A stretch of DNA of 64,000 bases, taken from Arenibacter sp. 6A1. Its GTDB lineage: Bacteria > Bacteroidota > Bacteroidia > Flavobacteriales > Flavobacteriaceae. The notes beneath the pieces were generated by a model. It saw only the letters and a list, made by a program, of their open reading frames with translations, was not told the origin of the DNA and did no database searches. The translations under genes and the position numbers were made by a program. Location of the stretch: contig NZ_JAAXCQ010000010.1 in NCBI RefSeq assembly GCF_012272855.1, forward strand, positions 1-64,000, read 5' to 3'. Positions 3,524-18,131 of the stretch are shown here, piece after piece; position 1 is the stretch's first letter; the number at the start of each line of letters is the position of its first letter.

Positions 3524-4372
3524 ATGAAAAACAATTCTAAATTTAAACTTTTGGCCTTATCCGTAGTTATCGGTTCGGTCGTATTTTATTTGGGAAGCTC
3601 TTTTAAAAAACATACCGACTGGGTACAGTTATTTAATGGAAAGGACCTTAAAAATTGGCAGATTAAAATCACAGGTCACGAATTAAACGAAAATTTCGGT
3701 AATACCTTTAAGGTAGAAGACGGAAATATTCAGGTTAGGTACGATGAATACGATGCCTTTGATCAGAAATTTGGCCATCTTTTTTACGAAAAGCCATTTT
3801 CAACTTATTTATTCGCTGTAGAATATAGGTTTGTTGGTGACCAAGTAAAAGGGGGACCAGGATGGGCGTACCGTAACAGTGGGGTCATGATTCACGGACA
3901 AGATCCGGCAGAGATGACCGTAGATCAGGATTTTCCAAACTCTATTGAAGTACAGCTTTTGGGTGGTAACGGCAAAGACGAGCGATCTACCGCTAACCTT
4001 TGTACTCCTGGTACACAATATGAAAAAGACGGAAAAATAATGAAGCAACATTGTTTTAATTCTAATTCTAAAACCTACCATGGTGAGCAATGGGTACGTG
4101 CAGAAATATTGGCATTGGGCGATTCTTTGATCGTACACTACGTGAACGGAGAAGAAGTAATGCGTTATGAAAAGCCACAATTAGACCCAGTGAACGGAGC
4201 AGAACAGGGAGCCTTGTTAAAAGGAGGTACTATTTCCCTTCAAAGCGAAAGTCACCCAGTCGATTTTAGAAAAGTTGAGATCATCAATTTGGAAAAGTAT
4301 GCCGATAATCCTAAAAAGCTTCAAAAGGTGGTTAAAAAGCTGATGGCCGAAAAAAGAGTGCCAAAACAATAG
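3524..4372 (+). CDS. 3-keto-disaccharide hydrolase family protein (DUF1080)
   Basis: A 282-aa exported protein with an N-terminal hydrophobic anchor (LLALSVVIGSVVFYLG) and a single DUF1080 jelly-roll domain at about residues 30-258. Family marks are WVQLFNGKDLKNWQ near the start, YRNSGVMIHGQ, and PNSIEVQLLGG. Known members hydrolyse glycosidic bonds after the sugar has been oxidised at C3. That fits the nearby Gfo/Idh oxidoreductases and sugar epimerases, but activity here is inferred. It is monocistronic and converges on the ThuA gene across a shared terminator. Confidence 0.85.
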   Translation: MKNNSKFKLLALSVVIGSVVFYLGSSFKKHTDWVQLFNGKDLKNWQIKITGHELNENFGNTFKVEDGNIQVRYDEYDAFDQKFGHLFYEKPFSTYLFAVEYRFVGDQVKGGPGWAYRNSGVMIHGQDPAEMTVDQDFPNSIEVQLLGGNGKDERSTANLCTPGTQYEKDGKIMKQHCFNSNSKTYHGEQWVRAEILALGDSLIVHYVNGEEVMRYEKPQLDPVNGAEQGALLKGGTISLQSESHPVDFRKVEIINLEKYADNPKKLQKVVKKLMAEKRVPKQ

Positions 4373-4456: not shown

Positions 4457-5569
4457 CTATTTAAAATCTTCTACTTTTAATTGCTTGTTTTGCCAGTAGG
4501 CTTCGTTTCTAAACTCGTAAGTAGTCGGTTGGTAATCGCCTACAAGAGTTACGTTGGCCTTAGAAGGAACCGGTAATTCTAGCGCCCAGTAAACACCGTT
4601 GACCAATAGTCTACGGGTACCTTCTATTAGTAAATCATTGGCAGCTCCTACGGTAGAAGTAAAGACCTTTCCTTTTTTTCCTTCTGGCAACTGGTAGCTT
4701 TTGGTCCAAGCAATGGGCATCATAGGGTTGTTTACATCGACTCCCTGGTCATTGGTGCCGGGAAGTTCAGCATCGGTTGGTTTCATTCCATAAAAAATAT
4801 CCGCTGGGTCAAACTCTCCTTTTCTGTTCACCACTTGCCCTAATAAAATAGGTTGTGAATCTCCCGGAAGAGGAAGTCGAACTCCATACACATCGGTAGG
4901 CCCCCAAACATCGCCATCGGAAATACCATTGGTAATATCGTGATTCATAGCAGTAGGTGCTATAATTCCACGGGTACTTTGGTGTTTGTGTGAGCCGTGA
5001 TGGGAAATCCATTTTTCTCCCAATACTAAACGGCCAAAGCCGTCTTTCCAAGCTGTTTTTTCTCCTTGGTAGCCATTGCTGTAATGGGTAAATTGGGAGT
5101 CGGAATCCTTGTCAAAATTAAAGGCATGGGTCGCTGTTCGGATGCCCATTACAGGTTTTCCTTTCCTTAGGTAATTGTCGATATGTTGCATCTGCTTGTC
5201 CGGCAGGGCTCTAAACCTTGTAAAAATGACCATCATATCTGCATCGGTTAGGGTTTCTAGGCCCGGGATATTGTAGCTGTAATTGGCATTGATGATACCG
5301 GGTTTCTCTGGGTCTTGAGCAAATAATACCGTGCATTTAAAACCATGTCTTTTTGATAAGATTTTGGCTAGCTGCGCCATGGCTTCCTCGGAACGGTATT
5401 CTTCATCGCCCGTTATGAACACAATATGTTTTGATGTTTTCTTTTTCCCTTCAAAGGTCAACCATTGTGTAGCGTTTTCAGTTACTTGTTCCGCATTGGG
5501 AGTCATTGCTTTTTGTCCGCTACAGGCCATTAATACGGCACAAAGAAGAACATATACTAGGTTTTTCAT
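4457..5569 (-). CDS. ThuA-like lipoprotein
   Basis: A 370-aa protein with a lipoprotein signal (lipobox LMAC, lipidated Cys16). The ThuA-like domain, a class I glutamine-amidotransferase-like fold, spans about residues 45-330. Visible marks include IVFITGDEEYRSEEAM, FTRFRALPDKQM, GIRTATHAF and WISHHGSHKH. ThuA proteins accompany sugar-oxidation genes and DUF1080 proteins in many Bacteroidota and Planctomycetota; their chemistry is poorly known. It is last in a minus-strand series after an MFS transporter and a sugar epimerase, 83 bases after the epimerase. The product is probably outer-membrane or periplasmic. Confidence 0.85.
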   Translation of the reverse strand: MKNLVYVLLCAVLMACSGQKAMTPNAEQVTENATQWLTFEGKKKTSKHIVFITGDEEYRSEEAMAQLAKILSKRHGFKCTVLFAQDPEKPGIINANYSYNIPGLETLTDADMMVIFTRFRALPDKQMQHIDNYLRKGKPVMGIRTATHAFNFDKDSDSQFTHYSNGYQGEKTAWKDGFGRLVLGEKWISHHGSHKHQSTRGIIAPTAMNHDITNGISDGDVWGPTDVYGVRLPLPGDSQPILLGQVVNRKGEFDPADIFYGMKPTDAELPGTNDQGVDVNNPMMPIAWTKSYQLPEGKKGKVFTSTVGAANDLLIEGTRRLLVNGVYWALELPVPSKANVTLVGDYQPTTYEFRNEAYWQNKQLKVEDFK

Positions 5570-5652: not shown

Positions 5653-6495
5653 TTAAGAACGATCTATACCTTCTTTAATAAATTTTAGCCCCTCGGTATA
5701 CACCTCCTCGGCAGGGGAATAATCCCTCCAGACATTAATGGCATTGGCAAACTCGGGGATTATGGTACTAAATGCTTCTATAGTAAGCCAGCCGTTGTAG
5801 TTGACTTCTTTTAGAGTACTAAAAACCTCTTTCCAATGTACCTGCCCGCTGCCAGGGGTACCTCGGTCGTTTTCACTGATGTGTACGTGTTTTAGGTGGG
5901 GAGCAATAGTTTTTATGGCTTGGGCCTGACCTTTTTCTTCAATATGCGCATGATGGGTGTCGTACATGGCACCCAAGTTGGGATGGTTCACTTGGCTCGC
6001 CAAGGAGCTTAAGTCTGCCATAGTATTGTACAAATAGCATTCAAACCTATTTAAGGCTTCGGGAGCGAGAACAATGCCTGCGGCAGCGGCGTACTCAGAT
6101 CCTTTTTGTAGCATTTCTACACTCCACTGTCGTTCACTTTCAGTAGGAGGTTGACGGGTGAAATATGCAAAACTAGAATGGAAAGGACCGCAAATTACTT
6201 CTGCATTCATGGCTGCTCCCATATCTATGGACCATTTTAATTTCGCCAAGCCGGCAGCCCTTGTTTTGGCATCTGGACTAGCTATATTTTCCTCCGGAGC
6301 TAAGGAAGCAACACAGGTAACCCCCATGTTTATATCAGTAAAATGCGTGCCCAGTTTTGAATAGTGCTCTAAATTACCCTCGCCTAAAAACAGCTCAATG
6401 CCGTCGTAGCCGGTGTTTTTTATTTTATCTATGATGTTGTAGTGTGCTTCTGTCACATGATTGGTCCAGAGCAACATATTCATTCCAATCTTCAT
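5653..6495 (-). CDS. Sugar 3-epimerase-like TIM barrel protein
   Basis: A 280-aa cytoplasmic protein of the xylose-isomerase-like TIM-barrel fold, close in layout to D-psicose/D-tagatose 3-epimerases. The four expected metal ligands are visible as Glu in LAPEALNRFE, Asp in MYDTHHAH, His in LKHVHISEN and Glu in WLTIEAF. The family interconverts ketoses by a metal-bound enediolate. It lies 206 bases behind the MFS transporter, separated from it by a strong stem-loop, and 83 bases before ThuA. Together these suggest uptake and epimerisation of an unusual keto-sugar. The exact substrate is unknown. Confidence 0.83.
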   Translation of the reverse strand: MKIGMNMLLWTNHVTEAHYNIIDKIKNTGYDGIELFLGEGNLEHYSKLGTHFTDINMGVTCVASLAPEENIASPDAKTRAAGLAKLKWSIDMGAAMNAEVICGPFHSSFAYFTRQPPTESERQWSVEMLQKGSEYAAAAGIVLAPEALNRFECYLYNTMADLSSLASQVNHPNLGAMYDTHHAHIEEKGQAQAIKTIAPHLKHVHISENDRGTPGSGQVHWKEVFSTLKEVNYNGWLTIEAFSTIIPEFANAINVWRDYSPAEEVYTEGLKFIKEGIDRS

Positions 6496-7922: not shown

Positions 7923-8088
7923 AGTTTTAAAATGTATTTAGGTTTTGGTTTATTTTATTGTTCGTGATGTATTTATGATAAATTATAGTTGTAAATGCAA
8001 TTTATTTTAAGCCGATTTTATATCAATTTGATTAAAAATATGATCACAAATAATGTATATCTTATATTTTAAGGAAAATGTTAAGTAA

Positions 8089-8151
8089 CAAATCTAAAAC
8101 TTATAGCGATTTTAAATTTCCTATTTCTTACTAAAAGATGACACTATTTTA
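8089..8151 (-). promoter_or_regulatory. AraC-type operator and -7 box for the MFS operon
   Basis: On the minus strand, 8151 down to 8111 matches the block at 9206-9246 in 34 of 41 positions (core AGTGTCAT, TTTTAGTAAG, AGGAAAT). After 14 bases comes TAGATTTG (8096-8089), a perfect TAnnTTTG box identical to the one in the other promoter. No -33 TTG is present, which fits an activator-dependent promoter. Transcription would start near 8084, giving a leader of about 160 bases. The rest of 7923-8281 shows no gene. Confidence 0.75.
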
Positions 8152-8281
8152 TCTTATCCGCTGTATTTTGGGAAATAATATGCAAGGTTCTTAAAAGAAT
8201 AATATCATAAATAGGGCAGATTTTGGCCAGTGGATAACTCCCTTTCGGGAAACTACTGAACAGTTTCTTTTTAGCAGTTTA

Positions 8282-9166
8282 TTAAGAAATACTAGTTTTA
8301 ATATCTAGAAACAGTTTACGGTATTCTAGTGGACTCATATTAGTAATAGCCTTAAATTGACGGTTAAAATTGGAGAGGGTATTAAATCCACATTCATAAC
8401 AGATTTGAGATACATTGAAGTTGTCTTCTAGAAGAAGTTTACGGGCATGGCCAATTCGAATATCATTTACAAATCGTGTAAATGTTTTATTTGCCCTTGG
8501 CTTAAAGTAGCGACAAAAGGAGGTAGTGGTCATATTTAATAATTCAGAAATTTCTTCCAAGGAGATTTGAGATTTAAAATGAGTCATCACATAATCGTAC
8601 ACCAAATGCATTTTTTCGGCATCGTCTCCTTTAAACAAGTTGGTGTATCCTGGACTCGAAAGCAAATGGAACTCTTCGCTATTGGCTAGAAGATTAATGA
8701 TTTTAAAGAGTTTGATGATGCGTTTAAAACCCGTTTCATTGGCTATTTTAAGAAGTGATTTATTGACCTTTTTTTTAGTCTCCCCATAAAACTCCATACC
8801 TCTATAAGAGTTTTCTACCAATTTGTTAATTTTATAGAACTCTTCCTTACTTAAAAGGGATTCATTCAATAGTTCGTGGTCAAAATAAATCACCAAGCCC
8901 CTAGTGTTTAATTCACTGTCTTTATCAAAAAAAGCCTCATCACTCCGCCATAGATGAGGAAGGTTGGGGCCCGTCAGCACTAAGTCTCCTTCGGTGAAAT
9001 TCTGAACATGGTCACCTATAAATCGAGTACCATATCCATTTACAATAAAGGAAATTTGAAACTCTGGATGAAAGTGCCATTTAGGGTTAAAGTATGGTCC
9101 GGTGATGTCCTTGTAGATAAAAGTCTCCTTAGGGGTGAGGGTTTTTTCTATGTTGGCCGTGCGCAT
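8282..9166 (-). CDS. AraC family transcriptional regulator
   Basis: A 294-aa regulator with an N-terminal cupin sensor (WHFHPEFQISFIVNG, then EGDLVLTGPNLPHLW) and a C-terminal AraC domain with two helix-turn-helix motifs at about residues 190-288. The first is in SLEEISELLNMTTTSFCRYF; the second runs from NVSQICYECGFNTLSNFNRQ to MSPLEYRK. Such cupin-AraC proteins usually respond to a sugar. It sits between the MFS operon and the divergent oxidoreductase operon. A matching operator and -7 box lies on each side, so it is the obvious activator of both; its own promoter is not clear. Confidence 0.9.
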   Translation of the reverse strand: MRTANIEKTLTPKETFIYKDITGPYFNPKWHFHPEFQISFIVNGYGTRFIGDHVQNFTEGDLVLTGPNLPHLWRSDEAFFDKDSELNTRGLVIYFDHELLNESLLSKEEFYKINKLVENSYRGMEFYGETKKKVNKSLLKIANETGFKRIIKLFKIINLLANSEEFHLLSSPGYTNLFKGDDAEKMHLVYDYVMTHFKSQISLEEISELLNMTTTSFCRYFKPRANKTFTRFVNDIRIGHARKLLLEDNFNVSQICYECGFNTLSNFNRQFKAITNMSPLEYRKLFLDIKTSIS

Positions 9167-9205
9167 AATTTTTCTGTTTTTTTTCTAGTCCGAGCTAATT
9201 TAGGA

Positions 9206-9268
9206 TAAAAAAGTGTCACTTTTTAGTAAAAAAAAGGAAATATCAAGTTTAAATCTGTTCTAGATTTG
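9206..9268 (+). promoter_or_regulatory. AraC-type operator and -7 box for the oxidoreductase operon
   Basis: The block 9206-9246 contains the 17-bp palindrome AAAAAGTGTCACTTTTT and matches 8151-8111 of the minus strand in 34 of 41 positions. It is followed after 14 bases by TAGATTTG at 9261-9268. Spacing and -7 octamer are the same as in the MFS promoter. There is no -33 TTG. Transcription would start near 9273, leaving a leader of about 235 bases before the first gene. The rest of 9167-9507 holds no gene. Confidence 0.75.
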
Positions 9269-9507
9269 TAAGGTGTCATTACATCTGTATAAATATAAGG
9301 CTGTGATTTTTATGAATAATATAATTATTTGTAGGCTTATTTAAAGGATTGATACTGTAGATTTTTTATTGAGGCTAATGAGAAATTGATGGGCTGAGCA
9401 CATAAAAACAGCTTTTGAAGGCACCATCATTTTAATGTTGAAAGAGTAGCCATGAAAAAGTCTATACTCCCTGACCATAAAAGATATAATGAATAAAATG
9501 TATAGTT

Positions 9508-10557
9508 ATGCAAGAAAATAATTTCCCTAAACTCCATAACGCTTCATGGCCAGGCGTGGTGGGGAAAGGACCAGATTCGGAGCCTACAATTTCTATAGAT
9601 ACCATGATAGATCTTACTGCCAAGGCATCGGTAGACGGGGTGAAGTTTGATGGATTTGATCTTTTTTTATTCGAACCACATTTAGATATCAATGCCTCCG
9701 ATGATGGCATAAAAATAATAGCAGACAAAGCTAGGGCCAAAAATCTGGAAATAGGGAGTCTTGTCGCTCCTGTATGGGCACCAGTTGGTGGCGGTTCTGC
9801 GATGGGATCAAAGGCTGAACGCGATAAGTTTTTGGAACAAATTAAAAAAGCGAGTAAAATAGCTTTTAAACTGCGCGAATTAGGGGTGAGGCCCCATGGT
9901 GTAATAAGAATCGATTCTTCCGCGGACCCGGCCAGTTGGGCTAAAGATCCGGTAGGGAATACCAAGCTAATAGCCCAGACCTTCAGGGAAGCCTGTGATA
10001 TAGCCGCCGATTACGGGGAGTCCTTGGCAGCCGAAGGAGAGATTTGTTGGGGAGGCATGCACGGGTGGAAAGCTATGGTAGATACCCTTGAGGCAGTAAA
10101 CAGACCTAATATCGGATTTCAAGCAGATATGGCACATACCTTATTATATCTGTTGGGGTACAACAAACCAGACGAAAGAATTTTGCCTCAAGACTTTCAG
10201 TGGGAAGATAGAGCCACTTTAACCGAAGGCCTTAAAACTCTAACAGCAGCATTACGACCTTGGACGATCGATTTCCACGTCGCTCAAAACGACGGTACAG
10301 TGTTTGGCGCTGGTTCACACGATAAAACAGGGAGACATTGCTTGGCTTCGGACCCCAATGGGAAACTCAATATTACCGAGGATGCCGGATTTTGGCTAAG
10401 GGACGATCAGGGAGAATTGACCAAAAAATTTAAACATATATGTTGGGACGGTTGTATGTTTCCTAATGAGGTAATGATGCAACCAAAAACATGGAACGAT
10501 ATTCTCAAAGCTATGATAAACGTCCGCCAAAAACATGGTTGGTACGAGGCAGAATAA
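9508..10557 (+). CDS. Xylose-isomerase-like TIM barrel protein
   Basis: A 349-aa cytoplasmic protein of the sugar-phosphate isomerase/epimerase superfamily. Likely metal ligands are Glu in LAAEGEICW, Asp in GFQADMAHT, His in [10 protein letters not shown] and Asp in HICWDGCMF, spaced as in xylose-isomerase-like barrels. It is longer than the 280-aa epimerase upstream and only distantly related to it. It is the first gene of a six-gene operon, 64 bases before the Gfo/Idh gene. It probably isomerises or epimerises an oxidised sugar made by its neighbours; no precise substrate can be named. Confidence 0.78.
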
Positions 10558-10621: not shown

Positions 10622-11806
10622 ATGTCAACAAAAAAAATTGTACGAATAGGATTGATCGGATACGGATTTATGGGAAGAACCCATACCAATGCCTATAAAA
10701 GGGTAGGTGATTTTTTTCCTGAATTAGAGTACCGGCCTGTTTTAAAGGCAGTATGTGCCCGTAATCTAGAAAGGGTACAGGCGTTTGCCGAGCAATGGGG
10801 CTACGAATCAGTGGAAACAGATTGGAGAGCATTGATAGCTCGTGACGATATTGATGCTGTAGATATATGTACCCCCAATAATATGCATGCAGAAATTGCC
10901 ATTGCGGCAGCAGCGGCAGGAAAAATGGTGCTTTGTGAAAAGCCATTGGCCAGAACCGTAGCCGAGGCCCAGCCCATGGTAGATGCCGTGGAGAAAGCAG
11001 GTGTTAGGAATACGGTTTGGTACAATTACCGCAGGGTGCCGGCAGTTACCCTAGCCAAAAAATTGATTGATGCCGGAAAATTGGGAAAAATATTCCATTA
11101 CCGTGCCAATTTCTTGCAAGACTGGACCATTAGTCCAGAACTACCACAAGGTGGAGAAGGCTTATGGCGTTTAGACAATGAGGCGGCAGGATCCGGGGTT
11201 ACCGGAGATCTTCTCGCCCATTGTATCGATACGGCCATGTGGCTAAATGGCGGCATAAAGGATGTGTCGGCAGTAACAGAAACCTTTATTAAAGAACGAT
11301 TGCACTCCGGAACAGGAGAGGTAACGCAAGTAGGGATAGACGACGCTTGTATTTTTCACTGCCATTTTGAGAATGGTTCCTTAGGAGTTTTCGAATCTAC
11401 ACGCTATGCCCGTGGCCATAAGGCCCTTAATACCTTTGAAATTAATGGGGAACACGCTTCCATTCGTTGGGATCTGCACGACCTGAATCGCTTGGAATAT
11501 TTTGACCATAGGGACGATCCTCTGATTAGGGGCTGGCGAACTATTCATGTCACCGATGGCGATCAGCCCTATATGGATAAATGGTGGGTACCTGGTTTGT
11601 CAATCGGTTATGAGCACACCTTTGTACATCAAGTAGCCGACTTTTTACAAAGTATAGAAGAACAAAAGATCTGTTCCCCTACCTTTAGAGAGGCACAGGA
11701 AACCCAAAAGGTCTGTGAGGCCGTATTGGAGTCCGCCGTCACAAGAAGCTGGAAAGATACAGGAGTACGCTGGGAGGCCAGTCGATTAATAAATGCTGAA
11801 CATTAA
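10622..11806 (+). CDS. Gfo/Idh/MocA family oxidoreductase
   Basis: A 394-aa NAD(P)-dependent sugar or cyclitol dehydrogenase. The N-terminal Rossmann fold has [15 protein letters not shown], followed by the family motif CEKPLA at about residue 105. The C-terminal alpha/beta domain contains [16 protein letters not shown], where His is the likely catalytic residue. The family oxidises hydroxyl groups of sugars, often at C3, using bound or free NAD. The stop codon is followed directly by the ATG of the zinc dehydrogenase, so translation is probably coupled. It has no export signal. Confidence 0.87.
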
Positions 11807-12919
11807 ATGAGTACAGAGTTAAAAGGGTTTTGCCTTCATGGCAAACAGAAGATAAGCCCTAGTTCGGGAATTCCCATCATGAGCAATACGGAAGTCGTAG
11901 CCCTAGAAATACCTTCCTTGAAGGAAGGGGAAATATTGGCAAAGACATTGTATACCGGTATTTGCGGATCTGATAATAGCGCTTCCTTGGGGAAGGCCAA
12001 TTTTGATTGGGTAGAACGGCCTAGAGTGATTGGGCACGAATTTAGTGCTGAAATCTTGGCTTTGGGACCTGGCGACCATGGCAATCTTAAAGTGGGCGAT
12101 GTCTTTACCCCCTTGGCCATGCTGGGGTGTAGAGAGGAAGCATGTCCTGCCTGTAGCGTGTCCAAGTGGAATTTATGTCCGTCCAAACAAATTATCGGTT
12201 TTCATAGAAACGGAGGTTTTGGCCAACAGGTGGTGTTAGAGTCAGACAGGGTGGTTCCCTTAATGAAAGGCTTAACACCGGCACAAGGGGCTTTAGTAGA
12301 ACCCTTGTCCGTGGTGGTTAATGCCTTGCATAACAAGTGTCATATCAAACCGGGACAAGATGTAGTTGTCACAGGATGTGGGATTATAGGGTTAATGGCG
12401 GCAGAGTTAGCCAAGGCGGCAGGGGCTAGGGTAGCAATTACCGGTTTGGCTAGCGATAAGGAAATTCGCCTAAAAGCAGCAAAAGAACGCGGCTTTATCA
12501 CTATAGAAGTATCCCCAGAGAATAGCTTATCAACGCAATTGTCAGCAGGAATTACCGATGCTAATGGTATTCCCTTTGGAGTGCTTGGAAAGGTAGACCT
12601 ACTGATAGAATGTTCCGGAGTGCCACAGGTATTATCCGAAGCTATATCGGTGGTAAGGCCAGAAGGAGATATTTGTGTTATAGCGACTTATGGACAGGAC
12701 GTTGCCATCAATGCTACGCATCTTACCCGTACTTCTTTAAATATGAGAGGCTCTATGGGATCGTGTAGAGAAGATTATATGGTGGCGCAGAAACTCATGG
12801 TAACCGGTGTATTCCCCTCAGAACACTATACCAATATATATGACTTTAAAGACATTCGCCAAGCTTTTGAAGACTCTATACTAGCCAACAACGTCAAGGC
12901 AGTCATAAAAATGAATTGA
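11807..12919 (+). CDS. Zinc-dependent alcohol (polyol/sugar) dehydrogenase
   Basis: A 370-aa medium-chain dehydrogenase. The catalytic zinc site is formed by Cys53 (TGICGSD), His77-Glu78 (IGHEF) and Glu in ALVEPLSV. A structural zinc loop with Cys108, 113, 116 and 124 follows. The NAD site is VVVTGCGIIGLMAAE. It resembles sorbitol and L-threonine 3-dehydrogenases. It begins at the base after the preceding stop codon. In this operon it offers a second oxidation step, or a reduction of a keto-sugar; the direction is not known. Confidence 0.86.
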   Translation: MSTELKGFCLHGKQKISPSSGIPIMSNTEVVALEIPSLKEGEILAKTLYTGICGSDNSASLGKANFDWVERPRVIGHEFSAEILALGPGDHGNLKVGDVFTPLAMLGCREEACPACSVSKWNLCPSKQIIGFHRNGGFGQQVVLESDRVVPLMKGLTPAQGALVEPLSVVVNALHNKCHIKPGQDVVVTGCGIIGLMAAELAKAAGARVAITGLASDKEIRLKAAKERGFITIEVSPENSLSTQLSAGITDANGIPFGVLGKVDLLIECSGVPQVLSEAISVVRPEGDICVIATYGQDVAINATHLTRTSLNMRGSMGSCREDYMVAQKLMVTGVFPSEHYTNIYDFKDIRQAFEDSILANNVKAVIKMN

Positions 12920-12950: not shown

Positions 12951-13970
12951 ATGCATACAATATTTATAACTGGCGGTACAGGTTGTATAGGGTCAGTTAC
13001 CATTTATAAATTATTACAATCCAAAGAAGTAGGGAAAATTGTGGTTGCTTCGAGGTCCAATAACACAGCTCCCCTCAAATTATGGTTGGGAGAAGATTTA
13101 GATCCTAGAGTAGAATTCATATCCTTGGATGTGGCAGACTATAGGGCTATTGAAGAGGTTGTTCTAACGGTAAACCCAACCCATATCATTCACTTAGGAG
13201 CGTATCAAAGTCCGGATTGTTCTAAATACCATATCCAGGGAATGGAAATTAATACGGGAGGTACTATGGCATTATTTGATGCTGCAGAAAAATTGCCCAA
13301 TTTACAACGGTTTGTATTTGCTAGTTCCGCCGCCGTTTATGGAATGAGAGCTATGTATCCTGAACCGGGAATTGCCGAGGACGCTCCATTGGCACCACCC
13401 AACCATTACGGAATTTGGAAATTGGCAGGAGAGCATTTGGCCCGATTGTTTTATGATAATACCAAAGTGCCTACCGTTTGCCTAAGAATAAATACCACCT
13501 ATGGCAAAGGCAGGGACCAAGGTAAAACCTCGGCACCTACCAATGCCCTTAAAGCAATCGCAACCGGAGCAATTATTGGGGCTTCTATACCTTTTGAAAT
13601 GCCGTATCAGGGCCGCGAAAATTATCACTTTGTAGAAGATGTAGGAGCGCATTTTGCAGCTTGTACCTTGCAACCGTACAAGGGCTTTGGAGCATTTAAT
13701 ATTAAGGGAGAAACAATAGCGATCACCGAATTTTTAGCCATCGTAAAACAACAGGCCAACGAAATGGGGATAGGCGAATTTGCAGAACTCTCCATAGTAG
13801 CAGGGGCAGATCCAAATTTATTTGTTTCAGATTTAAGTCATGATAAAATTGCAGCTACCTTTAAAGATTTGCCGTTGACCAGTATTGCTGAGGGAGTAAG
13901 GAGGTCTCTAGAGGAATTCCTAGAAATGGCAAAAACCGGAAGTTTAAATTATTCATTAAAAAGTATATGA
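12951..13970 (+). CDS. NAD-dependent epimerase/dehydratase (extended SDR)
   Basis: A 339-aa extended short-chain dehydrogenase/reductase. It has the nucleotide motif GGTGCIG at residues 8-14 and the catalytic set Ser126, Tyr153 and Lys157 (YGIWK). Family members act on nucleotide sugars or free sugars and sugar acids. With no nucleotide-sugar genes nearby, a free keto- or aldonic sugar is more likely. Its last four bases ATGA hold the start of the next gene, so the two are translationally coupled. The start is 31 bases after the zinc dehydrogenase. Confidence 0.85.
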   Translation: MHTIFITGGTGCIGSVTIYKLLQSKEVGKIVVASRSNNTAPLKLWLGEDLDPRVEFISLDVADYRAIEEVVLTVNPTHIIHLGAYQSPDCSKYHIQGMEINTGGTMALFDAAEKLPNLQRFVFASSAAVYGMRAMYPEPGIAEDAPLAPPNHYGIWKLAGEHLARLFYDNTKVPTVCLRINTTYGKGRDQGKTSAPTNALKAIATGAIIGASIPFEMPYQGRENYHFVEDVGAHFAACTLQPYKGFGAFNIKGETIAITEFLAIVKQQANEMGIGEFAELSIVAGADPNLFVSDLSHDKIAATFKDLPLTSIAEGVRRSLEEFLEMAKTGSLNYSLKSI

Positions 13971-14941
13971 AAACGATAGGGATTGGATTTCTTGGTGCCG
14001 GGGATATTGCAGATCTACATGCCGAAGCCATAAACGGTTTGGAAGGGGCAACCCTAGTGGGACTATGGAATCGGACGGCAGAGAAAGGAAAGGTCAAAGC
14101 CCTGAAATATGGCTGTAAGACCTATAATACCGAGGACGATTTGTTAAACGACCCTGCTATAGATGCTGTGTTTATCCTGACCAATATGGAAACCCATTGC
14201 GAATACACCCTTCGGGCAGCAAAGGCAGGGAAACATATTTTGGTCGAAAAACCGGCGGCATCGAGTATTGCAGAATTGGAAAAAATGAATAAGGCCGTGA
14301 TGGAGGCTGAGGTGCACTGCATGCCCGTACATAATTATATTTATGAAAGCGGTATAGAACGGGCCAAATCTATGATAGATAGTGGGAAATTAGGCGATAT
14401 CACCCAGTTTTATATGATGTATAACATCCATCATGCCGATGATGTCAGGGCGCGCTACCCAGGAGTAATACGTCAAATACTGACACACCATAGTTATACC
14501 ATGCTATTTTTAGCCGGGCTCCCTAGGACTATTTCTTGTATGAAACATACGGTAGATGCGACTATAGCTCCTCAAGAAAATGTAGCCATGGTCAATATAA
14601 AAATGGAAAATGGCGCCTTGAGTCACCTTAGTGCAAGCTTTGCCAATGATGATCATGCTGGGGATCCGTGGAGCTGTATTATAAAAGTAATAGGCACCAA
14701 AGGAAGTACCCGGTATAGTTACCGAGACTGGGTAATTAATGAAAGGAACGGGGCACACTCCCAAACATATTATGCCTATCCCGAATCTATTAAAAATACC
14801 ACCACCCATTTTATAAATAAAGTGATCCGAGAGGGGGGACAACCCTTATCAAGTCTAGAAGATGCCATCAATTGTCAAAAAATCATTGAGGCCTGCGAAC
14901 GGTCTGTTGCAGAAGAAGTCCATGTTAAATTTCAAAAATAA
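13967..14941 (+). CDS. Gfo/Idh/MocA family oxidoreductase, second copy
   Basis: A 324-aa protein with the Rossmann motif IGIGFLGAGDIADLH and EKPAA at the usual place. The C-terminal domain has an HH pair (ILTHHSYTMLF) where the family has its catalytic His. It is not a close paralogue of the first Gfo/Idh protein; it is shorter and diverged, so the two probably act on different intermediates. It overlaps the SDR gene by 4 bases, and the next gene begins 19 bases after its stop. Confidence 0.86.
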   Translation: MKTIGIGFLGAGDIADLHAEAINGLEGATLVGLWNRTAEKGKVKALKYGCKTYNTEDDLLNDPAIDAVFILTNMETHCEYTLRAAKAGKHILVEKPAASSIAELEKMNKAVMEAEVHCMPVHNYIYESGIERAKSMIDSGKLGDITQFYMMYNIHHADDVRARYPGVIRQILTHHSYTMLFLAGLPRTISCMKHTVDATIAPQENVAMVNIKMENGALSHLSASFANDDHAGDPWSCIIKVIGTKGSTRYSYRDWVINERNGAHSQTYYAYPESIKNTTTHFINKVIREGGQPLSSLEDAINCQKIIEACERSVAEEVHVKFQK

Positions 14942-14960
14942 CCTCGAGCCAAATAAAATT

Positions 14961-17900
14961 ATGAGAATAAAACTTAATCTTTCCTTGATAAAATACAGCC
15001 TTCTTTTTGGGGTATTCCTAGCTATAAGCAGCTGTAATAAACAAGGACCTACTTTGCATATAAGCGAGAATTCCCATATTGTGATTTTAGGGAATAATTT
15101 AGGATCTAGAATGACCCATTTTGGTCATTTTGAGACCGAAATGCAATTGCGCTATCCCGACAGCCTTCTTTTTATCAGGAATATGGCCGACGGTGGAAAC
15201 ACACCGGGATTTAGGCCGCACCCCTCCCGAGATTCCCCTTGGGCCTTTCCGGGGGCAGAGGTGTTTCAGACAGAACTTGCGCAGAAATCGGGAAATACCG
15301 GTCATTTTGACTCTCCGGACCAATGGTTGACCAAGCTGAAGGCCGATATCATCATAGCTTTTTTTGGCTATAATGAATCTTTTGAAGGAGCGGCCGGGCT
15401 AGAAAACTATAAGGCAGAACTTCAGGCCTTTATACAACATACCCTCAACCAGCAATACAATGGTACCGCTGCCCCACAATTGGCACTAGTATCACCCATA
15501 GCTTTTGAAGATCTTTCTGCAAAAATGGATTTGCCCAATGGCGTAAATGAAAATAAAAACTTAGCGCTTTATACAGCCGCAATGAAGGAAGTTGCAGCTG
15601 CGAATAATGTGTTGTTTGTTGATGCCTTTGAGCCCACACAAAAATGGTATGACAACGAAAAGCAAGATTTGACGGCCGATGGATTTCAACTGAATGATTT
15701 TGGTTATAAGAAATTTTCGAAACTATTGGCAGATCAGATATTTGGAAATAGAAAAGTTAAGGCTGAAGAAAATCGAGCTTTGGTTCTTGATGCGGTAAAG
15801 GAAAAAAATTGGTTTTGGCTCAACGATTATAAAATTCCTAATGGGGTACATGCCTATGGAAGGCGTTATGATCCCTTTGGTCCAGATAATTATCCGGCCG
15901 AGATTGAGAAAATACGACAAATGACGGCGATCAGGGATACTGCCATTTGGGAGGCTGTTAAGGGTGTGTCGAAAGATTTGGCCGCTGCAGATGCCAAGAC
16001 TCGAGAACTTCCGGTGATAGAAACCAATTATAGGTACAAAGGGACTAATGGAGGTCCAGCATACCTATACGGGAAAGAAGCCGAAGAAACCATAGAAGTG
16101 GCCGAAGGATATAAAATAGAGCTTTTTGCCTCTGAGGAGGAATTTACCGATCTGGCCAATCCGGTGCAGCTATCCTTTGATAACAAAGGTCGTTTATGGG
16201 TAGGGGTTATGCCTAGTTATCCACATTATAAAGCTGGGGATAGCAAGCCAAATGATAAGCTATTGATTTTGGAAGATACCGATAATGATGGAAAGGCCGA
16301 TAAACAAACTGTTTTTGCTGATGGCCTACACCTTACTATTGGGTTTGAATTTGCCCCAGAAGGAGTGTATGTTTCCCAAGGGACAAATTTAGTGTTGTTA
16401 AAAGATACCGACGGAGACGATAAGGCCGATGTCACCGAGGTTGTTTTAAGTGGCTTCGACGATCATGATACGCATCACGCCATCAGTGCATTTACTACAG
16501 ATCCTTCAGGAGCGATCTATATGGGCGAAGGTGTATTTTTACATACCAATGTAGAGACTGCTTATGGACCGGTAAGGGGAACCAATGGCGGATTTTACCG
16601 ATATAGCCCACAGCGGCACCATTTGGAACGAACCGCTCAGTTATCTATTCCTAATCCCTGGGGAATCGCCTTTGATGATTGGGGTCAGAATTTCTTTGCA
16701 CATACCTCTGGGCCAGATATGACTTGGATGATGCCAGGAACTATTAAACCACGTTATGGAAAGGCGTCTCCACTGCCGAAAAACCTGATTCAGGCAGAAC
16801 ACAGGGTGCGACCAACCTCGGGACTAGAATTTATATCTAGTAGACATTTCCCAGAAGAAGTTCAAGGAGATATCATTATCAATAATACGATTGGTTTCTT
16901 AGGGACAAAACAACATACTATGGTCGATGATCCTGAGTCTGCAGGCTATATCAGTACCCATAGGTTAGATTTAATGAGATCTACGGATACTAACTTTCGA
17001 CCTGTTGATATGGAGTTTGCTCCAGATGGGTCCTTATACTTTTTAGACTGGCACAATGTATTAATCGGTCATATGCAGCACAATGCTCGTGATCCGTTAC
17101 GCGATCATGTACACGGTAGAGTGTATCGAATTACGTACCCGTCCAGACCATTAGTAGAACCAGCTAAAATTGTTGACGCCAGTATTGGAGAATTGTTAGA
17201 TAATTTAAAGCTGCCAGAATACCGAACAAGGTATCGTACCAAAAGAGAGTTACGTGCTAGAAATCAGGACGAGGTATTAGCTGAATTAAAAGATTGGGTT
17301 AAAAACCTGGATAAAAACGACCCTAGATACGAGCATCAATTATTAGAGGGCCTTTGGGTAAGTTGGGGGCTTAACAAAGTAGACGGCGATATATTGAACC
17401 AAGTATTAAAAGCAGATGATTTTAGGGCACGTGCAGCCGCTGTTAAGGTGTTGCGATATGCCGGACATCAGATTGCCGATCAACCTCAATTATTAATGCA
17501 AGCAGCAACCGACGAGCATCCGCGGGTTCGATTAGAGGCCTTGGTTGCCAGTTCGTGGTTACCAAAAGAAATAGGGCTGCCCATTGTTGAGGCAGCCGGA
17601 AAAATGCCTTTGGACGATTGGATGCAAAAACCTTACGAAGCGGCGATTGCCCATTTAAACGGACATAATTTAGGGGAAGATCCAGATGCAGTTAAGGTAC
17701 AAACCGATTTGAAAGGAAAAGATAAGGATCTGTATGTAAAGGGAGCCGCTATTTATGCAAGAGAAGGGTTTTGTATTACCTGTCACCAACCCAATGGAAA
17801 AGGACTAGAATCCTCGGGCTTTCCTCCATTAGATGGTTCCGAGTGGGTAACGGGTAGTCAAGAACGTCTCATTAAATTAACCTTAAAAGGGATGATGGGA

Positions 17901-18131
17901 CCTATAGAAGTAAAAGGAAAAAAATATCCTGGACAGGTACCCATGACACCATTTGGAGGCATGTTGAACGATGAGGAAATGGCATCGGTATTAACCTATG
18001 TCAGAAATACCTTTGGCAACAAAGCTTCGGCAATTGCTCCGGAAAAAGTGAAGGAAATAAGAGCGCAGATTAAAGATAAAGAAGGGTTCTATAGCGCAGA
18101 GGAATTATTAAAAGAACACCCGAATAACTAA
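14961..18131 (+). CDS. Pseudo-SGNH / PVC-type dehydrogenase / HEAT / cytochrome c lipoprotein
   Basis: A 1056-aa protein. I start it at 14961, where a lipoprotein signal begins (FGVFLAISSC, Cys25); the open frame continues upstream but overlaps the previous gene. The domains are: SGNH-hydrolase-like (about 35-290); a six-bladed propeller of the membrane-bound sugar dehydrogenase type with Asp-rich calcium loops such as DTDNDGKADKQ (about 370-770); a helical HEAT-like stretch (about 790-900); and a cytochrome c with CITCH at about 938-942 and a likely axial Met in PGQVPMTPFGG. In the SGNH part the Ser of block I is Asn (LGNNLG) and the His of the last block is Gln (DGFQLND), so it is probably not catalytic. 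The protein likely oxidises a sugar in the periplasm and passes electrons to the respiratory chain. Confidence 0.85.
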   Translation: MRIKLNLSLIKYSLLFGVFLAISSCNKQGPTLHISENSHIVILGNNLGSRMTHFGHFETEMQLRYPDSLLFIRNMADGGNTPGFRPHPSRDSPWAFPGAEVFQTELAQKSGNTGHFDSPDQWLTKLKADIIIAFFGYNESFEGAAGLENYKAELQAFIQHTLNQQYNGTAAPQLALVSPIAFEDLSAKMDLPNGVNENKNLALYTAAMKEVAAANNVLFVDAFEPTQKWYDNEKQDLTADGFQLNDFGYKKFSKLLADQIFGNRKVKAEENRALVLDAVKEKNWFWLNDYKIPNGVHAYGRRYDPFGPDNYPAEIEKIRQMTAIRDTAIWEAVKGVSKDLAAADAKTRELPVIETNYRYKGTNGGPAYLYGKEAEETIEVAEGYKIELFASEEEFTDLANPVQLSFDNKGRLWVGVMPSYPHYKAGDSKPNDKLLILEDTDNDGKADKQTVFADGLHLTIGFEFAPEGVYVSQGTNLVLLKDTDGDDKADVTEVVLSGFDDHDTHHAISAFTTDPSGAIYMGEGVFLHTNVETAYGPVRGTNGGFYRYSPQRHHLERTAQLSIPNPWGIAFDDWGQNFFAHTSGPDMTWMMPGTIKPRYGKASPLPKNLIQAEHRVRPTSGLEFISSRHFPEEVQGDIIINNTIGFLGTKQHTMVDDPESAGYISTHRLDLMRSTDTNFRPVDMEFAPDGSLYFLDWHNVLIGHMQHNARDPLRDHVHGRVYRITYPSRPLVEPAKIVDASIGELLDNLKLPEYRTRYRTKRELRARNQDEVLAELKDWVKNLDKNDPRYEHQLLEGLWVSWGLNKVDGDILNQVLKADDFRARAAAVKVLRYAGHQIADQPQLLMQAATDEHPRVRLEALVASSWLPKEIGLPIVEAAGKMPLDDWMQKPYEAAIAHLNGHNLGEDPDAVKVQTDLKGKDKDLYVKGAAIYAREGFCITCHQPNGKGLESSGFPPLDGSEWVTGSQERLIKLTLKGMMGPIEVKGKKYPGQVPMTPFGGMLNDEEMASVLTYVRNTFGNKASAIAPEKVKEIRAQIKDKEGFYSAEELLKEHPNN

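Follow-up and report, generated by a model that had tools for sequence, protein, structure and literature searches.

Paired candidate operators flanking an AraC-family regulator gene in Arenibacter sp. 6A1 and their conservation in relatives

Here we report that two similar blocks on either side of an AraC-family regulator gene in Arenibacter sp. 6A1 are probably the operators of that regulator, most likely a class-II activator of the two gene arms that diverge from it. Comparison of relatives shows the sites, their fixed geometry and their tie to this AraC, and on that sequence comparison the proposed control circuit is very likely. The kind of regulation is ordinary and known, that of a local AraC-type class-II activator regulon. 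What is added here is the extent of the conserved unit (65 bp), its tie to AraC by presence and absence and its apparent use in trans, together with one genome's additional target and a probable control of araC's own promoter by the same operator. The outcome, for an AraC regulator of marine Flavobacteriaceae, is an exact predicted binding sequence with its target list and promoter geometry; among the matches listed in open-access papers, none dealt with this operator.

The locus and its paired blocks

The window, by which we mean the whole 64,000-nt stretch of contig NZ_JAAXCQ010000010.1 that was analysed, holds the regulator gene between a leftward and a rightward arm:

8282..9166, minus strand: AraC-family regulator, 294 aa
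6702..7922, minus strand: MFS transporter, gene 1 of the left arm
5653..6495, minus strand: EpiA (a label coined here), epimerase-like TIM barrel
4457..5569, minus strand: ThuA-domain protein (37.0 bits, cut-off 33.4)
9508..10557, plus strand: G1, TIM-barrel protein
10622..11806, plus strand: G2, Gfo/Idh/MocA oxidoreductase, levoglucosan-dehydrogenase-like
11807..12919, plus strand: G3, zinc-type alcohol dehydrogenase
12951..13970, plus strand: G4, NAD-dependent epimerase/dehydratase family protein
13967..14941, plus strand: G5, second Gfo/Idh/MocA oxidoreductase
14862..18131, plus strand: G6, large protein, with its mechanical ORF start

The AraC protein combines an N-terminal ligand-binding domain (AraC_binding, 38.6 bits, cut-off 21.1) with a C-terminal double HTH domain (HTH_18, 78.2 bits, cut-off 33.6; HTH_AraC, 46.0, cut-off 26.6), and is 97% identical to the AraC of Arenibacter nanhaiticus. 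Two further AraC-family homologs (37% and 39%) stand in tandem at G000:C23:271820-273654.

The initial annotation had matched 9206-9246 (plus) with 8151-8111 (minus) in 34 of 41 positions and had placed an identical box 14 bases after each, and our recount agrees on both points, the box being TAGATTTG on either side. The extent of the block required revision: the 41-bp match stands, but the block kept in relatives starts 2 bp earlier, at 9204 and 8153, giving a conserved core of 43 bp. Together with a 14-bp spacer and the -7 box, this core makes up a conserved unit of 65 bp:

9204-9268, plus strand: whole right unit, 65 bp
9204..9246, plus strand: right operator core, 43 bp, at a predicted -69 to -27 from the start site
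9247..9260, plus strand: right 14-bp spacer, fixed in length and poorly conserved in sequence
9261..9268, plus strand: right-arm -7 box TAGATTTG, predicted start near 9273
8153-8089, minus strand: whole left unit, 65 bp
8111..8153, minus strand: left operator core, 43 bp
8097..8110, minus strand: left 14-bp spacer
8089..8096, minus strand: left-arm -7 box TAGATTTG, predicted start near 8084
9195..9202, minus strand: candidate -7 box of araC, TAAATTAG (5/6), 1 bp from the right operator

No other place in the 64-kb window matches either block at more than 26 of 41 positions. When the two intergenic regions were shuffled 200 times with dinucleotide content preserved, 41-mers matched at 28 positions at most, the observed best in any register being 35. 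The pattern AGTGTCANNTTTTAGTAA occurs without mismatch at two places in the 4.67-Mb genome, which are the two blocks beside araC, and at none with exactly one mismatch; with up to three mismatches it gives 61 matches against 80 for a control pattern, which is noise.

Conservation in relatives and the tie to AraC

An ortholog of this AraC is found in 14 of 299 family genomes including the window's own (68-100% identity), the next best protein reaching 54%. In all 13 other ortholog loci of this family set ThuA and EpiA lie left of araC and G6 lies right of it; G1-G5 are kept in seven and missing in six, and the MFS gene is kept in five. The six-gene oxidoreductase arm described in the initial annotation is therefore not universal: with G1-G5 absent from six of the 13 loci, the regulon genes common to all of them are EpiA, ThuA and G6. 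This narrows the search for the substrate, possibly a 3-keto-sugar. In each of the 26 gaps beside araC in these loci, forward matches gave a higher top score than reverse ones. Left-gap matches are weak in L056, L057, L061, L062 and L064, and the left sites of L055, L056, L057, L061 and L064 are degenerate, with decayed distal halves in L055, L056, L061 and L064; the left site of L057/L092 lacks AGGAA.

We also scanned the 36 named loci with AraC orthologs at 68-97% identity, seven of which were taken for the same genomes as some of the 13 family-set loci (L104-L138, at 47% or less, were left out). In 35 of these, araC is flanked on either side by the 43-bp core, which with the window makes 72 sites; L103, whose araC has lost its neighbours, does not contribute to that number. 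A -7 box of the Bacteroidota sigma-A type (TAnnTTTG) stands 14 bp from the core at all 72 sites, at 6/6 positions in 54 and 5/6 in 18; the box was not used in the core scan, and offsets that tied were resolved in favour of 14. The 72 cores score from 24.2 upwards, against at most 12.4 at 1,258,362 control positions taken from these loci, the core matrix having been trained on the window and the 13 family-set loci, so that loci of those genomes are not independent. At 90% AraC identity the ortholog loci form 17 groups. Conservation in 10-bp bins is 0.62-0.84 inside the core against 0.28-0.39 outside the left block, and left and right sites are slightly more alike within one genome than between genomes (0.724 vs 0.699, p 0.011). 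The search for the block and its downstream box in relatives, which the initial annotation had proposed as a check, was thus passed in 35 of 36 named ortholog loci, and its naming of the elements as operators and promoters gains backing from the comparison.

The distribution of the block links it to this regulator. The sequence-only model R1 and alignment A1 comprise 47 of the 72 sites, near-duplicates having been thinned by hand choice. At E ≤1e-4, in a search with filters that can lose weak matches, R1 found the block in 14 of the 299 family genomes, and these are exactly the genomes with the AraC ortholog. Three of them (G011, G050, G227) gave one site at E 1e-4 and the second at E 0.0008-0.0016, and both sites were found in all 14 at E 0.0016 or better. 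Homologs of G6 at E ≤1e-250 occur in 31 of the 299 genomes, namely the 14 ortholog genomes and 17 without this AraC, and none of those 17 has the block. Twelve of these 17 have a G6 of 72-79% identity (one match partial), compared with 73-78% in the 13 ortholog genomes; Fisher's test on the block (14/14 vs 0/12) gives 1e-7, a value that is a guide only because the genomes are related. The initial claim that one activator serves both arms is supported by this pattern, and by the fact that the block stays with the targets when araC is elsewhere, as described below.

In G135, whose AraC homologs are 52-54% identical, R1 had no match better than E 0.1, and one araC upstream region resembles the block with a score of 13.7. 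The HTH segment FNRQFK is common to all 11 aligned AraC orthologs; both G135 homologs read FNKQFK. The window's own genome has a second G6 copy (73%) at G000:C4:150822-154055, with two stop codons inside the stretch, and no block was found there.

Run at E up to 10 on 17 genomes that include the 14 with the ortholog, R1 gave matches clear of noise at two sites each in those 14, in G299 and in G300, and at a third site in G289. The next matches among those listed lie at E 0.001-0.004 in G236, G299, G227 and G203, and the places fetched as further targets in G236 and G227 showed no convincing core. The third G289 site is 98 bp before a second G6 copy (E 6.8e-5), with a 5/6 box at 14 bp and a core score of 23.4, slightly below the lowest-scoring of the 72. 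G300 is Agaribacillus aureus (Cytophagales; loci L103 and L169), in which the only close AraC ortholog (76%, next 42%) is encoded on contig C4, while the catabolic cluster and both operators are on C33. There the operators diverge (E 7.5e-12 and 8.1e-11); the 336 bp that separate them contain no araC match, and the inter-operator spacing is 401 bp versus about 1.1 kb in the window. Upstream of the displaced araC the score of the whole core is -9.6, with a 5/6 box still present 14 bp away; the distal half is readable by eye, the proximal half is not.

The Agaribacillus split and the extra G289 operator show, at the level of comparison, an AraC that would act in trans, and the two genomes are natural experiments for such action. 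In Splendidivirga corallicola, also of the Cytophagales, both sites lie around araC. The presence in another class of an AraC at 76-78% identity is suggestive of horizontal transfer of the cassette together with its wiring; if so, it has crossed between Bacteroidota classes with that wiring intact.

Promoter geometry, araC autorepression and competing explanations

AraC-type activators usually have their site upstream of the -7 or -10 box, where it replaces the -33/-35 region, and Bacteroidota sigma-A promoters typically carry a TTTG-like -33 element. In all 72 sites the core ends 14 bp before the -7 box, the class-II position relative to the predicted starts. No TTTG-like -33 element is present, most sites reading GGAA or GGGA some 20-24 bp upstream of the -7 box, as expected for an activator-dependent promoter. 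A simple sigma-70 scan added no information on the promoters. With the -7 box placed at -12 to -5, as described for Flavobacterium psychrophilum with the consensus TAnnTTTG (PMC9723704), the core would span -69 to -27. Across the 47 aligned sites, core columns 1, 4, 7, 9, 20, 21, 28 and 32-34 are invariant and fall into groups spaced roughly one helical turn apart. A direct repeat is best at 21 bp among the summed offsets tested (p 0.03, uncorrected); the 12-column halves prefer 23 bp.

From these features we infer binding, the sign of regulation, the half-site layout and a role for an inducer. An AraC dimer would cover the core, over the span given above, as two half-sites in tandem, with the promoter-proximal half (around GATAnAGGAA) occupying what we take to be the position of the -33 element. 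From this half AraC would bring sigma-A RNA polymerase to the TAnnTTTG box, fixed 14 bp away, and a single regulator could in this way activate both the leftward transporter-EpiA-ThuA arm and the rightward oxidoreductase arm.

The right operator may have a second function on the other strand. The right core begins 35-37 bp from the araC start codon in 34 of the 36 loci and 67 bp from it in two Maribacter loci, and a minus-strand TAnnTTnG-like box adjoins the core at 5/6 or better in 14 of 18 representatives, against 8% of random windows, within a stretch that was chosen after seeing the sequences. The four representatives under 5/6 are L093, L100, L101 and L103. Since the right operator adjoins this box, AraC bound there would probably also limit araC transcription, which suggests autorepression through the right operator. 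The displaced Agaribacillus araC shows, by eye, the distal half only and the cluster keeps whole operators, from which it could tentatively be proposed that the operator is divided, the distal half, next to the -7 box of araC, serving autorepression and the proximal half activation, a reading to which we give somewhat less than an even chance. If true, one 43-bp site would be a two-way switch with separately evolving halves. In the two Maribacter loci (L100, L101) the right operator is shifted by about 31 bp from the araC start, near three helical turns, and is still 14 bp from its own -7 box.

Other explanations of the paired blocks were weighed against this activator circuit. AraC might bind the blocks and repress both arms, or its action might depend on a loop joining the sites, which a distance of about 1.1 kb between operators flanking araC would permit; the sign of regulation is not readable from sequence. 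We nevertheless consider this improbable, since the site, placed upstream of a -7 box at a constant 14 bp, stands in for the -33 region, the usual layout of AraC-type activators, and since the operator spacing changes to 401 bp in Agaribacillus and the third G289 site stands alone before its G6 copy.

It is more doubtful still that another regulator reads the blocks and that the neighbouring araC is a bystander. AraC and its putative targets mostly travel together, so that their co-occurrence is partly confounded, but the coincidence of block and ortholog in 14 of 299 genomes, the 17 genomes with a G6 homolog and neither ortholog nor block, and the persistence of the block in Agaribacillus, where araC is non-adjacent yet in the genome, make this reading very unlikely. 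Inverted blocks flanking a single gene could also be the repeats bounding araC in a mobile or invertible element. The chance of this is negligible: the orientation of araC to the arms is constant in all 13 family-set loci and all 35 named loci with arms, the copies differ at 7 of 41 positions, their similarity stops at the promoter boundaries, and the block is also found without araC between (Agaribacillus) and singly (G289).

Gene content and comparable systems

One close known relative of the proposed circuit is E. coli AraC, which at araI1-araI2 occupies an activator site just upstream of and overlapping the -35 region, is autoregulated and is encoded beside its targets. Site placement, the position of the regulator beside its targets and, as proposed here, autoregulation are shared with the Arenibacter locus, whereas in the latter two separate operators flank the regulator gene and the promoters have a Bacteroidota -7 box rather than a -10 element. 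AraC-family regulators of Bacillales, Bacteroides and Enterococcus are described as using direct repeats with 21-bp periodicity (PMC3870299). As with the RhaR-type regulators of Bacteroides and others presented in that work, an AraC-family gene lies beside catabolic genes and the motif was found comparatively; unlike them, the present system has its own motif, targets and lineage, and a 21-bp repeat is weakly supported here.

The enzymes of the locus make a catabolic route through 3-keto sugars plausible. EpiA resembles ketose 3-epimerases, and a 3-keto-disaccharide hydrolase gene lies nearby at 3524-4372 on the opposite strand, outside the left arm. In a structural database G2 matches PDB 6a3f (E 6.4e-80), annotated as a putative dehydrogenase and presumably a levoglucosan dehydrogenase. 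No solved-structure relative was found for G1 at E 0.01 or for G5 at E 1e-20. With its mechanical start, G6, which we tentatively take to be a PVC-type dehydrogenase, runs into the end of G5. Its homologs begin to align at about residue 31-57, which puts the probable true start near 14961. The levoglucosan pathway is encoded by lgdA-lgdB1-lgdB2-lgdC (PMC7676230), and the locus resembles it in the LgdA-like G2 and in the sugar-isomerase-like TIM barrels of its cluster. It differs in that G2, at 341.5 bits, is far under the cut-off of 650 for the LgdA NCBIfam equivalog, and the gene set named in that description of the pathway includes no counterpart of ThuA, the zinc dehydrogenase, the SDR or G6 (PMC7676230).

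Gene content also varies among relatives in other ways. In many Arenibacter loci, as well as in L053, L054 and L065, a further ThuA homolog (37-42%) separates the right operator from G1. The window lacks this gene; a 239-bp leader occupies the position, and no remnant of the gene was detected in that leader. Six genomes with the reduced locus (L181-L186) have another G1/G2 cluster without the operator, with G2 homologs at 76-80% and G1 homologs at 65-69%. As a moved G1-G5 arm this cluster was rejected: it has no block (best core score 8.1), and no orthologs of G3, G4 or G5 were detected in the six clusters. Its G1 identity is below that of most intact arms (77-98%; 68% in L101), and we therefore take it for a different locus. 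In L182 a sugar-isomerase-like gene and a second large protein are also part of the cluster.
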